A stretch of 21,956 nucleotides of DNA from an uncultured Taibaiella sp. (GTDB lineage Bacteria > Bacteroidota > Bacteroidia > Chitinophagales > Chitinophagaceae). Location: contig CAMPJV010000007.1 in the NCBI GenBank assembly GCA_946886975.1, positions 1-21,956 on the forward strand, given 5' to 3'. A model generated the notes under the pieces. It did no database searches, was not told the origin of the DNA, and saw only the letters and a program-made list of their open reading frames with translations. The translations under genes and the position numbers were made by a program. Every line of letters starts with the position of its first letter. The stretch's first letter is position 1. Below are positions 3,010-21,030 of the stretch, piece by piece.

Positions 3010-3132
3010 TCTCCGAGCCTTATATGTGACAGCGAGTGATCAGCTTCATGACCGCCCGCGCTGCAAACGATAATGGAATCCAAAGCCCTGGCTAGATTGC
3101 CTGCGGATAGATTATATTTGAAGTGGTACTTG

Positions 3133-3618
3133 ATGAGATATCTTTCTTTTTTCTGTATGATGGTTGTAGTGCTCCTTTCTGGCTGCAGGGATAATTCGGC
3201 AGATAGCGAGAGCAGCAGCCGTCACGAAAGGACCGACCCGGTTTGGGAGTATGAATACGACCCGACGGCGAATGACTTCCGAATCGTAAAGCTGCGGGAG
3301 TTAAGTCATGATACACTAACGGTTCCTTTGATCGAAGCAATTGTAAATACAGCCTGGCCCAAAGTTCAGGTAAAGTACCTTAAGGCAAGCAAGGATACCG
3401 TTTTTCTCACCATAGAACGAAGCGAGTTGTTGACGCAGCAAATGGGGTCAGAAGGCGCGCAACAGTTCCTGATCTCTGCAACTTTCACCTTTACAGAGCT
3501 AAAGGGAGTGAACTACGTCTCCTATACCTTTCCTGCCGGCGATCATGCAGAGGCTGGTGTTTATTCCAGGAGGTCCTGGACTTTCCCTCGCGCGGCACAG
3601 CCGGCTCCCTTGAACTGA
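3133..3618 (+). CDS. Predicted lipoprotein of unknown function
   Basis: Starting at ATG 3133 the product is 161 residues with a clear lipoprotein signal peptide: MRYLSFF, a hydrophobic core and the lipobox LLSGC (residues 14-18), followed by a Ser/Asp-rich linker. It should be anchored in the cell envelope. The frame is open to an ATG at 3073, but that start would place 20 charged residues before the signal peptide. The mature part contains GSEGAQQFLISATFTFTELKGVNYVSY and GDHAEAGVYSR, which loosely recall GerMN-type domains; this is a weak resemblance. A TATATTTG at 3113-3120 is too close to the start to be a likely promoter. No operon partner is evident. Confidence 0.72.
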   Translation: MRYLSFFCMMVVVLLSGCRDNSADSESSSRHERTDPVWEYEYDPTANDFRIVKLRELSHDTLTVPLIEAIVNTAWPKVQVKYLKASKDTVFLTIERSELLTQQMGSEGAQQFLISATFTFTELKGVNYVSYTFPAGDHAEAGVYSRRSWTFPRAAQPAPLN

Positions 3619-3751
3619 CTCAGAAATATTGACCTTCACTTGAGGTTGGACTACTTAATGTAGGCTGCTGCATCGGTGGCAACTGCAGTTCGGGATCATT
3701 CAGTGCGCCCGGGCAGTTATATCACGTCCCGTGAAGAAACTTAGGAGGAAT
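3619..3751. other. Intergenic region upstream of the CRP-like site
   Basis: No gene seen. It contains the inverted repeat TCACG-TCC-CGTGA (3722-3734). Its centre is about 31 bp, three helical turns, from the centre of the CRP-like palindrome at 3752-3767. Confidence 0.4.
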
Positions 3752-3767
3752 TGTGACAAAAGTCACA
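3752..3767. promoter_or_regulatory. Perfect CRP/FNR-family operator
   Basis: TGTGACAAAAGTCACA matches the CRP consensus TGTGA-N6-TCACA at all ten fixed positions and is a perfect palindrome with 6-bp arms. Its centre (3759.5) lies about 42 bp upstream of the start predicted from the -7 element at 3789-3796. That is the usual position of a class II activator site. Which regulator binds is unknown; Bacteroidota have several CRP/FNR-family proteins with different signals. Confidence 0.6.
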
Positions 3768-3788
3768 TCCGCCTTGATACGAACGAAT

Positions 3789-3796
3789 TAACTTTG
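3789..3796 (+). promoter_or_regulatory. Bacteroidota -7 promoter element
   Basis: TAACTTTG fits TANNTTTG exactly. There is no TTG at the expected -33 spacing (the nearest, at 3774-3776, is only 12 nt away), as would suit an activator-dependent promoter using the operator at 3752-3767. The predicted start is near 3802. Confidence 0.5.
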
Positions 3797-3801
3797 AATA
3801 A

Positions 3802-3897
3802 CTCACCTGAATTTGATTTCTCTCAGAGATATTCTTCTTCGGAAGACAAGTTGATAGGGTTTATAGGGGCTGGCTCATTCTTGAGCCGGCTTTTTTT
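3802..3897 (+). ncRNA. Candidate structured small RNA
   Basis: Predicted RNA of about 95 nt between the promoter at 3789-3796 and a strong terminator. It contains a weak hairpin TCTC-TCA-GAGA, then a 5-bp stem closed by a cUUCGg tetraloop (3833-3837 with 3842-3846), one of the most stable RNA loops known, then a 9-bp terminator hairpin and seven T. The 86-residue reading frame that crosses it (3731-3991) contains the terminator and looks non-coding. I do not recognise an RNA family. The start is estimated from the -7 element. Confidence 0.42.
3869..3897 (+). terminator. Strong intrinsic terminator
   Basis: Arms GCTGGCTCA (3869-3877) and TGAGCCGGC (3882-3890) pair over 9 bp (one G-U), the loop is TTCT and seven T follow directly (3891-3897). 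It is too far from the lipoprotein (250 bp past its stop) to be its obvious terminator and fits the candidate small RNA better. Confidence 0.85.
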
Positions 3898-4023
3898 GCA
3901 ACTGGGATCGTTTAGACAGATGCTTTGCTCTGTAAGATGTGGCCAGAAAAAGGATATAGCGGGAAATGACGGCAATCAGGCAAAGTTTTGATGGCTGTCA
4001 TAGATTCTCCGGGCCGGTGACGA

Positions 4024-4031
4024 TAAATTTG
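4024..4031 (+). promoter_or_regulatory. Possible -7 element for the USP-antiporter operon
   Basis: TAAATTTG matches TANNTTTG and lies 17 nt before the ATG at 4049, giving a very short leader. No TTG lies at the standard -33 spacing. Confidence 0.38.
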
Positions 4032-4048
4032 AAAGTAAACAGCCAACT

Positions 4049-4912
4049 ATGCCGTACAATATCCTCGTACCCACAGATTCTTCGGAGACTGCAGGAAAAG
4101 CATTTGGTTATGCTTTGAACATCGCTTCCCGGAGCAAGGCGACCATCTATCTTTATCATGTCTATAGCCCGGTAGAAAGCCCGTTCATAGAGACAGTTGA
4201 GATACGAAGGGATTATAACATGACTAATGAGGAATTGCTAATGGCAGAGCTTCATAGGCTTAGGGCCACATGGAAGGCAGCATATCCGGACGTGAACATT
4301 GTTACAGTCCTTGGCAGATCTCCTTTGGTGAACTCCATGATGCAATTTGTAAAAGATAAGGAGATCGACCTGATCGTAATGGGCACACAGGGGGCTACGG
4401 GAATTAGGAAGGTAGTTGTTGGCAGTATAGCGGGGCGGATCCTGGACAGAACATCTGTGCCGTTGTTGCTGGTGCCGGAGCGCTTTGAATGGCGGCAGCC
4501 GGAGAAGCTGGTCCTTGCAACGAATTATAATGAAGAAGACATTATAGCCATGAAATTATCGGGTTGGCTAGCGTCTTTATTTGATGCTTCTATTGAAGTT
4601 GTTCATTTGCCAGATGTTAATGGCGATAGTCAGGAGACAGAGAAATCGTTCAGGCGATATGTTGACGAACTTACTGTGCATGCACCGGGCGTCAGCCTCA
4701 AATCGACCATATTATCGACGTACTCGGTGTTTGACACACTAGAAACCCTTCATGAGCAGATACCATATGACGTACTTGTGATGGTAAAGCACAAGAAGAA
4801 ATTTCTCAACCGCCTCTTTATGGAGAGTTGTACCAAACATATGGCATACCTCACCTGGCATCCACTTCTGGTAATCCCTGCCAATGAGGTTGTCGATGCT
4901 ACAGCGCAGTAA
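4049..4912 (+). CDS. Universal stress protein, tandem UspA domains
   Basis: Cytoplasmic stress protein of 287 residues with two UspA folds. The first (about 1-145) is complete: it begins MPYNILVPTD with D10, and carries the ATP-binding signature G112-x-x-G115 followed after nine residues by G125-S126 (MGTQGATG then VGSIAGRIL). The second domain (about 152-280) keeps the fold but lacks the glycine signature; in its place is VKHKKKFLNRLF, so it probably does not bind ATP. This complete-plus-degenerate layout is common in Bacteroidota. Its TAA overlaps the ATG of the next gene by one base, so it should be co-translated with the antiporter. The start is the ATG directly before the first strand of the fold. 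Confidence 0.92.
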   Translation: MPYNILVPTDSSETAGKAFGYALNIASRSKATIYLYHVYSPVESPFIETVEIRRDYNMTNEELLMAELHRLRATWKAAYPDVNIVTVLGRSPLVNSMMQFVKDKEIDLIVMGTQGATGIRKVVVGSIAGRILDRTSVPLLLVPERFEWRQPEKLVLATNYNEEDIIAMKLSGWLASLFDASIEVVHLPDVNGDSQETEKSFRRYVDELTVHAPGVSLKSTILSTYSVFDTLETLHEQIPYDVLVMVKHKKKFLNRLFMESCTKHMAYLTWHPLLVIPANEVVDATAQ

Positions 4913-5922
4913 TGATTGATATTGGTGCATTTATCGCCGCGGGCGTAGTGATTTTTTTCGCGGGTAGAAAGCTCTCCTACTATGGCAACAGAATAGCCGA
5001 TCTTACCGGAATGGGAAAGGCCTGGCTTGGGCTTATTCTCATGGCAGCAATAACCTCGCTTCCAGAACTTATGGTGGGGATCAGTTCGTCAGCGATTTTG
5101 GAATCCGCTGACCTTGCAGTCGGCGACGTTTTAGGAAGTTGTGCTTTTAATCTCGGTGTTCTCGCCCTGATGGATGCCTTAGTTCCGAAACATAAGTCAA
5201 TTTTTGGTATGGTTTCCCAAAGCCACATCATGGCTGCCGGGATGAGCATTATACTTCTCAGTATTACGGGAGTGGCCCTATACCTACCCGATGAAATAGT
5301 GGTCGTAAAGGGGCTTGGCCTTACAAGTGCTGTTTTTATTATCATTTATTTCCTCTCCGTCTGGATATTGTACAGATTTGACAATAAGAACAAACAGCGG
5401 GCAGTTCCGTCGCCAGAGGCCGATATGCCACCAGCACATCCCAACCTCAAGGTCACTTTATTGCGATTTACCCTTTATGCATTAATTATTGTGATCGCCG
5501 CTACCTCCTTACCGTATTTTGCCGACAAGATCAGTGAAGACATCGGCTTAAGCCAGTCTTTTGCGGGGACCTTACTCCTGGCGGTTTCTACGTCGTTACC
5601 GGAGATCGCTGTGTCCATCGCGGCAGTGCGGCTTGGCGCTGTTGATATGGCCGTAGGAAACCTGCTCGGGAGTAACCTGTTTAATATTCTTATACTCGCC
5701 GTGGATGATATATTCTACGTGAACGGCCATCTGTTAAAGGATGCTTCCGACGTAAACCTGATTTCCTGCTTTTCCACAATCGTCATGTCAGCCATAGCCA
5801 TAACTGGTCTTGGCTATCGCCTTAAGACTAAGCGGTTCTGGCTTGCCTGGGATGCAGTTTTAATATTTGCTGTATACCTATTTAATCTTTTTGTGGTTTA
5901 CAGGTTATCGGGTACCTATTGA
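4912..5922 (+). CDS. Calcium/sodium antiporter-type membrane protein (CaCA family)
   Basis: Inner-membrane cation exchanger of 336 residues with about ten membrane helices. It has the two inverted alpha-repeats of the CaCA superfamily: one at about 40-85 (AAITSLPELMVGISSS, then VGDVLGSCAFNLGVL) and one at about 219-261 (AVSTSLPEIAVSIAAV, then VGNLLGSNLFNILIL). The two ion-binding glutamates, E52 and E231, lie in the TSLPE motifs. A hydrophilic loop (about 155-180) separates the halves. Family members exchange Ca2+ for Na+ or H+; the substrate here is not certain because alpha-1 departs from the usual consensus (GDVLGSCAFN for GxxxGSNxFN). The ATG overlaps the stop codon of the USP gene (TAATG). 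Confidence 0.88.
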   Translation: MIDIGAFIAAGVVIFFAGRKLSYYGNRIADLTGMGKAWLGLILMAAITSLPELMVGISSSAILESADLAVGDVLGSCAFNLGVLALMDALVPKHKSIFGMVSQSHIMAAGMSIILLSITGVALYLPDEIVVVKGLGLTSAVFIIIYFLSVWILYRFDNKNKQRAVPSPEADMPPAHPNLKVTLLRFTLYALIIVIAATSLPYFADKISEDIGLSQSFAGTLLLAVSTSLPEIAVSIAAVRLGAVDMAVGNLLGSNLFNILILAVDDIFYVNGHLLKDASDVNLISCFSTIVMSAIAITGLGYRLKTKRFWLAWDAVLIFAVYLFNLFVVYRLSGTY

Positions 5923-8710: not shown

Positions 8711-9250
8711 ATGAGCATAAATCCCTGGCACGCCGTTGAAATTGGCAAGTATATGCCTGATGTAGTTCAGGCAATTATCGAAATCCCTAAGAATAGCCGT
8801 GCAAAGTACGAGCTGGATAAAGAAACTGGGATGCTGCGGCTTGACAGAGTGCTCTATTCATCAGTGTTTTATCCTGCGAACTACGGCTTTATTCCCCGGA
8901 CGCTCGGCGAGGATAACGACCCGCTGGACATCCTGGTACTTTCGCAGATCGAAATTCAGCCTTTATGCATTGTGAACGCAAGGGTAATTGGTGTAATGCG
9001 AATGATAGATAATCAGGAGGCAGATGATAAAATTATTGCAGTGGCGGAAGATGATGTTAGTGTGAACCATATAAAGGATATAGATGGATTGCCGCCTAAC
9101 TTCAATTCAGAATTGAAGCATTTCTTTGAGGAGTATAAAAAACTTGAGAACAAGGTTGTGCTTGTTGAGAATTTCCAGGACAGCAGGATAGCTAAGGCAA
9201 TTATCAAAGTTGCAATTGATGATTACAATAAGAAATTCGGACAATCCTGA
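8711..9250 (+). CDS. ppa: Inorganic pyrophosphatase, family I
   Basis: Soluble enzyme hydrolysing pyrophosphate to two phosphates. The 179 residues carry the family I landmarks: E24, the [13 protein letters not shown] segment (K32, E34), [12 protein letters not shown] (Y54, Y58), the signature EDNDPLDIL with metal-binding D68, D70 and D73, and the EEYKKLENK substrate-binding segment. Length matches the bacterial hexameric type. The frame is open to 8657 in the same phase, but ATG 8711 gives the standard N-terminus ([12 protein letters not shown]). The gene stands alone between a minus-strand operon and a gene-poor stretch. With USP, Hsp20 and HPF nearby it may be a stress-linked copy, which is inference. 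Confidence 0.95.
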
Positions 9251-17386: not shown

Positions 17387-17459
17387 GTAGTTCCACCAGG
17401 ATTCGAACCTAGACTAACTGAACCAAAATCAGTTGTGCTACCTTTACACAATGGAACTA
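17387..17459 (-). tRNA. tRNA-Gln (anticodon UUG)
   Basis: Complete cloverleaf on the minus strand: acceptor TAGTTCC/GGAACTA, D stem TGTG/CACA, anticodon stem ACTGA/TCAGT with loop TTTTGGT (anticodon TTG at 17426-17424), T stem CTAGG/CCTGG with the TTCGAAT loop. The U1-A72 pair fits glutamine tRNAs. CCA is not encoded. A canonical promoter precedes it and a hairpin follows. Its 3' end faces the accessory region. Confidence 0.95.
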
Positions 17460-19701: not shown

Positions 19702-21030
19702 ATGGCCCAGGAGGGAAAAACATTTGTAAGCAGGATCGACAGCATTACCGTATTGCTGTATCTCGTCCTTGTGCTTGTGGGACTGGTCACCATATTCTCC
19801 GTAGAGTACAGGACGACAGATCCAAGCATATTCATGATGAGCAAGAGCCACATGAGACAGTTCACTTGGTTTGGCATATCGTTGTTTGTAGGCCTGATCA
19901 TATTATTCACAGAAAGCAAGTTCTTCTCCAGCTTCGCCTTCCTGTTCTATACCATAGGTATCTTCCTGCTCATCATTACCATATTTGCGGGCTCCAATGT
20001 GAAGGGCTCGCACTCCTGGTTGGGCGTCGGCAGCGCCAGGTTCCAGCCGGGTGAGGTCTGCAAGATATTTACAGCACTGGCATTATCTAAGTTCCTCTCC
20101 CTGCCGGAGACCAACTTCAAGACGCTGAAGCATAGGCTTGTAGGCGCTGCGCTGGCGTTGGTCCCCTGCGCCATCATTATTTTGCAGTCAGAAACCGGCC
20201 TCGCACTTGTCTATTTGTGTTTCTTTCTCGTAATGTATCGGGAGGGTCTGCCTAATAGCGTGCTGATCATAGGCTTCTCCGTAGTGGCGCTCACCCTCAC
20301 CACACTCCTCGTCGACCGGGTGGTGATGTTTTATATCCTTACAGCTATTACAATTCTCATAGCAGTATTGATGAGGAAAACGATAAAGCGGAATATTGTT
20401 GTACTGTTTGTCGTCCTCGGCATCTGGGGTGTAGCCATTGGATTCTCCCAGTTTCTTGTGCCGTTTACATTCACGCATGTACTGAAAGGCTACCAGATAG
20501 ACCGGATATATTCCATGCTGGGGCAGGAGGTGCCGGAAGAATATATACCCGTGAGCGAAGGTGACGAGCTACCGGCCAGGAAAGGCAACGCCTCGGATTA
20601 CAATGTAACACAGTCCAAGATCGCCATCGGTTCCGGCGGATTGTTCGGAAAGGGTTTCCTTAATGGCACGTCTACCAAGAACGACTTTGTACCGGAACAG
20701 AATACCGACTTTATTTTCTGCGCCGTGGGGGAGCAGTTTGGCTTCGTGGGCAGCGCCGTGCTGATCCTGCTCTACCTCTCCCTGATGCTGCGGATATTAT
20801 TTATCGCGGAGCGGCAGCGATCTGACTTTAGCAGGATATATGGCTATTGCGTGGCTTCCATATTGTTCTTCCACTTTGCGGTCAACCTTTCCATGACCAT
20901 AGGCCTCGCGCCGGTGATCGGTATCACATTACCCTTCCTGAGTTATGGAGGGAGCTCATTACTATCATTTAGTATCCTGATGTTCATTCTGATAAGGCTG
21001 GATGCTGACAGGCAGGTGATGATACGCTAA
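19702..21030 (+). CDS. rodA: RodA, SEDS peptidoglycan glycosyltransferase
   Basis: Multi-pass inner-membrane enzyme that polymerises lipid II for cell elongation. The 442 residues carry SEDS landmarks: SHSWLGVGSARFQPGEVCKI, where FQPGEVCKI replaces the usual FQPSELxK; LQSETGLALVY, where QSETG replaces the common QPDLG; the periplasmic GYQIDRIYSMLG loop, GSGGLFGKGFLNGTSTKNDF with VPEQNTDFIFCAVGEQFGF, and the C-terminal GLAPVIGITLPFLSYGGSSL. About ten membrane helices. Length is greater than E. coli RodA (370) because of a longer central periplasmic loop. It is co-transcribed with mrdA, its obligate partner. A -7-like TAACTTTG overlaps its stop codon. Confidence 0.96.
   Translation: MAQEGKTFVSRIDSITVLLYLVLVLVGLVTIFSVEYRTTDPSIFMMSKSHMRQFTWFGISLFVGLIILFTESKFFSSFAFLFYTIGIFLLIITIFAGSNVKGSHSWLGVGSARFQPGEVCKIFTALALSKFLSLPETNFKTLKHRLVGAALALVPCAIIILQSETGLALVYLCFFLVMYREGLPNSVLIIGFSVVALTLTTLLVDRVVMFYILTAITILIAVLMRKTIKRNIVVLFVVLGIWGVAIGFSQFLVPFTFTHVLKGYQIDRIYSMLGQEVPEEYIPVSEGDELPARKGNASDYNVTQSKIAIGSGGLFGKGFLNGTSTKNDFVPEQNTDFIFCAVGEQFGFVGSAVLILLYLSLMLRILFIAERQRSDFSRIYGYCVASILFFHFAVNLSMTIGLAPVIGITLPFLSYGGSSLLSFSILMFILIRLDADRQVMIR

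Follow-up and report, generated by a model that had tools for sequence, protein, structure and literature searches.

A predicted small RNA of a multicopy Chitinophagaceae family behind a CRP/FNR-type promoter in a stress-gene cluster

Positions 3752–3897 of the window (the whole stretch of 21,956 nucleotides that was analyzed) are best read as a CRP/FNR-activated small-RNA gene that belongs to a multicopy RNA family of Chitinophagaceae, here named R2, and whose product probably acts in trans; we hold this reading as a whole with good confidence. The promoter type, the membership in the family, the covariation of the hairpin, and the noncoding pattern of conservation were established computationally. 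What a preliminary description had observed in this region was confirmed. Its interpretation was supported with the exception of a UUCG hairpin and of the implied single, standalone RNA, as the window RNA turned out to be one copy of a multicopy family.

The candidate region is intergenic and lies on the + strand between a lipoprotein-like ORF (3073–3618, + strand, no Pfam match) and uspA, a universal stress protein gene identified by its Pfam match (Usp, PF00582; 4049–4912, + strand). Domain searches revealed Hsp20, a weak HPF/YfiA match, an ATP-cone/Mrr protein, Usp, a Na/Ca exchanger, and thioredoxin in this neighborhood. The protein with ATP-cone and Mrr-type nuclease domains (Pfam), located within the stress cluster, is encoded at 1671–2585 on the − strand. 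The HPF/YfiA-like ORF (1282–1611, + strand) scored 15 bits with TIGR00741 versus a cut-off of 40.9 and gave no Pfam match, and its HPF label is weak. The RodA encoded in the window showed 79% identity to RodA of a MAG named Flavipsychrobacter, and the best identity found among 396 Chitinophagales genomes was 73%. A blastn search of the region against plasmids gave no match; UspA searched against plasmids gave 130 records, all with <60% identity, and none of the genome contigs scanned with UspA alone was confirmed.

The CRP/FNR-type operator TGTGACAAAAGTCACA (3752–3767, + strand) matches TGTGAN6TCACA exactly, as no other site in the window does. It had been described as a perfect palindrome, which applies to its 6-bp arms; the central AAAA flanked by them is nonpalindromic. 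The -7 element TAACTTTG (3789–3796, + strand) begins 23 bp past the TGAN6TCA core of this operator. Upstream of it, TTG occurs at spacer 12 only and at none of the canonical spacers 19–21; thus, the earlier statement that the promoter of the window RNA has no -33 element holds. Given the 23-bp spacing, the operator center falls at approximately −42 relative to the predicted start, which we take to be the class II activator position, as had been proposed. An operator near −41.5, a fixed distance to the -7 element, and the absence of a -33 element were all found, the start site itself being deduced from the sequence. These features support the assignment of a class II CRP/FNR-type promoter, with an operator of a kind that does not distinguish CRP from FNR.

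The spacing of 23 bp (N23) recurs as a promoter type. TGAN6TCA followed by TANNTTTG was counted at spacings of 5–59 in 81 sequences, comprising the window and 80 loci around usp genes, and gave 41 matches at N23 and 25 at a spacing of 45, with 60 matches summed over the 53 other spacings. These loci had been selected for usp genes; a second count, made in 14 whole genomes selected for usp matches or sites already seen, yielded 87 matches to TGAN6TCA-N23-TANNTTTG versus nine for the pattern read backwards, with all 14 genomes being positive. Among 87 distinct N23 promoters (85 from the 14 genomes and two from the window), 66 had an ATG frame of at least 40 codons at most 80 nt from the expected start, indicating that the majority of N23 sites are gene promoters. 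TGAN6TCA-N23-TANNTTTG is a real promoter type. The site at 45 lies two helical turns beyond the N23 site; 17 of the 25 matches at this spacing have their -7 element in common with an N23 site (L001–L080). Together with the family homology described below, the spacing peak bears out the earlier view that the signals occur together beyond chance.

Three promoters of the N23 kind are present in the window, ahead of the HPF-like ORF, the RNA, and uspA. The promoter of the HPF-like ORF (1125–1191, + strand) has operators at both spacings (1125–1140 and 1147–1162) and a -7 element, TAGCTTTA (1184–1191), with one mismatch. The uspA promoter comprises the operators AATGACGGCAATCAGG at spacing 45 (3965–3980, + strand) and TTTGATGGCTGTCATA at spacing 23 (3987–4002, + strand) and the -7 element TAAATTTG (4024–4031, + strand), which is located 17 bp ahead of the uspA ATG. 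With a -7 element and two operators of its own, uspA does not need the upstream RNA promoter.

The occurrence of terminators 40–150 nt downstream of such sites was surveyed with the -7 element relaxed to TANNTTT[GA]. A terminator was found behind three of 76 N23 sites (window, L080, and L060), compared with two of 174 sites with another spacing and 0.6% of positions picked at random. Taken alone, this enrichment is modest evidence, and the family homology is the main support. Two loci flagged by the terminator script were rejected as N23-promoter RNAs: L101 has the appearance of a reading-frame end, and the hairpin in L132 is weak. REC-cNMP-HTH_Crp proteins are encoded in L060 (2293–3351, − strand) and L080 (6510–7562, + strand), in both cases adjoining histidine kinase genes in stress clusters, and may be considered candidate regulators of N23 promoters. 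In L060, the promoter–terminator pair is convergent to the REC-cNMP-HTH_Crp gene.

A small RNA of approximately 95 nt (3803–3897, + strand) was predicted from the -7 element and the terminator, with an expected start at 3801–3804. A 98-nt fold had a free energy of −31.6 kcal/mol (z = −3.03), and one of 200 shuffles was equally good. The intrinsic terminator (approximately 3865–3896, + strand) consists of a stem formed by 3865–3877 with 3882–3894 and a T-tract, with compensatory changes in four pairs. A simple terminator scan did not list it, probably because G–U pairs of the extended stem consume the T-tract. As this stem covaries and is kept in relatives, the strong terminator described before is corroborated, and comparative evidence likewise supports the prediction of a short, terminator-ended RNA. 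No ATG occurs between the predicted start (approximately 3803) and the T-tract. The TCTTC-TTCG-GAAGA hairpin is present at 3833–3846 (+ strand), as reported, and lies outside the matches in relatives.

These matches come from a blastn search with 3740–3905 as the query and 99 genomes related to the nearest genome as the target; the 3′ part (from 3852) was found at E ≤0.01 in 23 of the 99. The best match was in L209 (E = 6e-15, 98% over 44 nt). As counted from the match list, 21 of the 23 matching relatives hold at least two copies, often in tandem at a distance of approximately 110–230 bp. No match with E <0.009 in the 99 relatives extended to the left of 3851; therefore, the 5′ half (approximately 48 nt) and the UUCG hairpin are not conserved. 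Comparison with relatives, of the kind originally suggested, recovered the terminator hairpin and a whole family; neither the UUCG hairpin nor the opening stretch of approximately 48 nt was kept. The operator and spacer (3754–3783) were weakly matched at G016:C2:2518609–2518639 (E = 0.0092, 87%).

A leave-one-out model built from 25 copies, with the window excluded, matched the family region at 3837–3897 (+ strand; models R2 and R3) with 66.9 bits and E = 2.5e-14, and the rest of the window scored at most 7.7 bits. The 26 copies, chosen by similarity, align without gaps, and the 22-nt stretch TGATAGGGTTTATAGGGGCTGG (3852–3873, + strand), a probable interaction region, is identical in all of them. 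In a wider set of 116 distinct copies, 21 nt of this stretch are exact in 98. UUUUCAU precedes the core in 98 of the 116 copies and is absent from 18. The window copy has GACAAGT at this place; UUUUCAU was not taken as defining, and the window copy may have diverged in function. The window thus contains both the match to a model made without it and the invariant 22 nt followed by the covarying terminator stem, by which the window RNA was computationally assigned to the R2 family.

Of the cells of the terminator stem, 99.7% are paired. Four stem pairs change on both sides, a number reached by four of 500 shuffles, and 14 cells of the stem are doubly changed, which none of 500 shuffles attained; slid versions gave 0–2 such cells. 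With model R2, whose training included the window copy, and a threshold of 1e-3, matches were obtained in 63 of 294 Chitinophagaceae genomes, up to 11 per genome; the 33 Flavobacteriales yielded a single weak one of 31.6 bits. At gathering level, the sole Rfam 15 match of the whole window was a tRNA gene elsewhere (17388–17458, − strand), and positions 3600–4100 gave no match at E up to 1, CyaR and FnrS included, in agreement with the initial remark that no RNA family was recognized. A narrow literature search found no published record of the R2 family.

The promoters of R2 copies vary. Among 81 copies, a perfect -7 element was found 8 nt ahead of the family region in 13 and 46–61 nt ahead in 18, and many copies have no perfect -7 element. 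An ordinary -33 element (TTG at spacer 19–21) precedes the -7 element in 16 of the 18 long-leader copies. The only two without it, those of the window and L228, both bear an operator (TGTGACAAAAGTCACA and TGTGACCTTAGTCACA, respectively), in each case at N23 and with an equal offset of 48 nt. When 116 distinct copies were tested for TGAN6TCA at exactly N23 from a -7 element with at most one mismatch, six were positive (window, L228, L331, L322, L211, and L212), compared with a mean of 0.06 in mononucleotide shuffles and eight matches at 49 other spacings (10–59). Copies adjoining an IF-3 gene, some of them in tandem, were found in L228, L331, and L322 (with operator) and in L210 and L223 (without operator). 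In L211, a PAS histidine kinase gene (183–1295, − strand) adjoins the operator-bearing copy. Operator control seems to have been acquired by single R2 copies. The R2 family as such is not CRP/FNR-controlled, since 110 of 116 copies are without an operator by the N23 test, and family-wide control is not claimed. The earlier assignment of CRP/FNR control is accordingly backed by comparison as far as the promoter type is concerned, but the operator is present in just six of the 116 family copies.

Four other explanations were considered and all rejected on the evidence against each. As it immediately precedes uspA and has the same orientation, the RNA might be the 5′ leader or an attenuator of the uspA transcript, with the terminator acting as a regulated stop, and a terminator-ended stretch is also found ahead of a usp gene in L080, L402, and L403. 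We consider this unlikely, because a promoter of uspA's own with two operators is situated between the terminator and the ATG, because the five copies in L228, L331, L322, L210, and L223 adjoin the IF-3 gene and not usp, and because UspA was found at E = 1e-30 in only four of the 99 relatives, with none among the first 16 listed (presumed closest). The terminator could also belong to the lipoprotein-like gene (3073–3618), which ends approximately 250 bp upstream on the same strand, and be accompanied by an operator that arose by chance. This is very unlikely in view of the operator, the N23 spacing, and the -7 element, which are exact and recur ahead of other copies, and of the family similarity, which begins 13 nt ahead of the stem at full identity.

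The multicopy, often tandem occurrence with up to 11 matches per genome would also fit a REP- or MITE-like hairpin repeat that is not a gene. A repeat of this kind would hardly account for perfect -7 elements at two set distances (8 nt in 13 and 46–61 nt in 18 of 81 copies, 16 of the latter 18 with a -33 element), for a T-tract on one strand only, for copies that hold their position by the IF-3 gene in several genomes, and for a strongest constraint that extends to unpaired bases ahead of the stem; its probability is correspondingly very low. Finally, ATGGTGATAGGGTTTATAGGG... would encode a small protein, MVIGFIGAGLFSG..., conserved in many copies, and 58 of 76 exact-seed copies indeed have an in-frame ATG-GTG (ATA-GTG in 10). 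In the window, the start position reads AAG-TTG, with no ATG. Only six of the 76 copies (five unscorable) contain an in-frame stop codon upstream of where the T-tract ends, so that in the remaining scored copies the frame runs off the RNA. Changes in the stem alter residues yet keep the pairs, and the 22-nt stretch is invariant at every base in 26 of 26 copies, including the third positions of codons. A small protein gene is therefore very unlikely; the conservation in relatives is not protein-like, as the RNA reading had anticipated, and by these comparisons the pattern of R2 was classed as noncoding.

In enterobacteria, CRP or FNR controls the transcription of the short RNAs CyaR, Spot 42, and FnrS. 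The window RNA differs from them in having no Rfam match, in belonging to another phylum, and in its Bacteroidota-type -7 promoter. The closest studied system by behavior, compared by description only, is FopS/GibS of Bacteroides thetaiotaomicron, paralogous multicopy short RNAs that are described for Bacteroidaceae in the parts of the source consulted (PMC11697453); R2 is likewise a multicopy paralogous family in Bacteroidota. According to the same parts of that source, the promoters of the FopS copies are canonical and that of the related GibS carries a special motif; FopS is described there as blocking the start regions of susC and as binding RbpB (PMC11697453). For R2, two crude scans gave no enrichment of pairing with start codons. 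Perfect anti-start sites (pattern ACCCTATCN{0,14}ATGAAAA) gave 56 matches in 16 genomes without enrichment: 51 had the form CAC[CT]ATG and are presumably the RNA genes themselves, and the five others compare with six matches of the reversed control. A duplex scan with the family seed at the starts of 998 predicted genes (1.2 Mb of G558) yielded 333 regions at or below −12 kcal/mol, versus a mean of 355 for shuffled seeds and 404 for gene interiors. With the window seed, 64 were found at the starts of the 998 genes versus 76 (shuffled) and 86 (interiors). Rfp18 of Flavobacterium psychrophilum is a conserved small RNA that affects mRNA levels, with conservation reported within the genus (PMC9723704). 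Compared by description only, it differs from the window RNA with its CRP/FNR-type promoter in that the main text of PMC9723704 contains no CRP or FNR.

A probable sister family, R1, consists of GGUUUUUCAUAGGAUAUUGGAUU and a GCUGG..UUCU..CCGGC terminator. L009 has three tandem units (20114–20517, + strand) and a fourth copy elsewhere (5164–5228, − strand), several of them preceded by CRP/FNR-type operators; further copies are in L138 (352–417, + strand), recognized by eye and missed by the terminator script, and in L008 (598–662, − strand). At a threshold of 0.01, model R1 found matches in 212 of the 294 Chitinophagaceae genomes, up to 15 in each, and five R1 source loci that were checked gave nothing with Rfam at gathering level other than a tRNA. 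R1 resembles R2 in its UUUUCAU..GG..GAUA block followed by the GCUGG..UUCU..CCGGC terminator, in being multicopy, and in having some operators, but it occurs in more genomes, and mostly in other ones. The hand-typed genome lists of the two overlap in 17 genomes, with both matches strong only in G665. On the window, model R1 with filters off reached at best 11 bits, and not at the RNA. Model R2 gave weak, in-register matches to R1 copies (11 of 13 matches, counted by position; E = 0.07–0.92, 33 loci), and R1 and R2 are probably homologous. Of 37 R1 copies, three have an operator at N23 and two at N24.

An unrelated RNA of Flavobacteriaceae with GAGAGUGGGGAUUCUC and the core GAGAGTGGGGATTCTC was observed behind N23 promoters ahead of usp in L080 (copy at 8914–9045, + strand), L402, and L403, and ahead of another gene in L400. 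In a broader reading, for which we see about as much reason to accept as to doubt, R1 and R2 would be branches of a single ancient RNA superfamily present in most Chitinophagaceae, a counterpart of Bacteroides FopS. Single copies would have been recruited repeatedly to a CRP/FNR stress regulon by swapping the -33 element for an N23 operator, and in Flavobacteriaceae an unrelated RNA would independently have come under this promoter type next to usp genes.

For the window RNA, we propose that an activator of the CRP/FNR superfamily binds TGTGACAAAAGTCACA at the class II position and thereby would compensate for the lack of a -33 element in a -7 promoter of the Bacteroidota type. Transcription would then proceed from approximately 3803 to the terminator at 3897 and give an RNA of approximately 95 nt, an R2 copy with a 5′ leader of its own under a promoter kind common to the neighboring uspA and HPF-like genes. 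Action in trans appears most likely: we conjecture that the exposed part of the invariant 22 nt pairs with mRNAs or binds a protein when the regulator is active. In the pairing mode, mRNAs complementary to GAUAGGGUUUAUAGG might be the targets.

In our judgment, based on a narrow literature search, only a few species of Bacteroidota have been studied to any extent for small RNAs and the way these are controlled. R2 and its probable sister R1, both without an Rfam match, were found in 63 and 212 of 294 sampled Chitinophagaceae genomes, respectively. The promoter rule TGAN6TCA-N23-TANNTTTG, with its frequent second site at 45 and with loci from several orders, may make candidate CRP/FNR regulons readable in unstudied genomes. 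As the paralogous RNAs differ in promoter type, they offer a direct way to test how small RNAs are recruited to a stress regulon.
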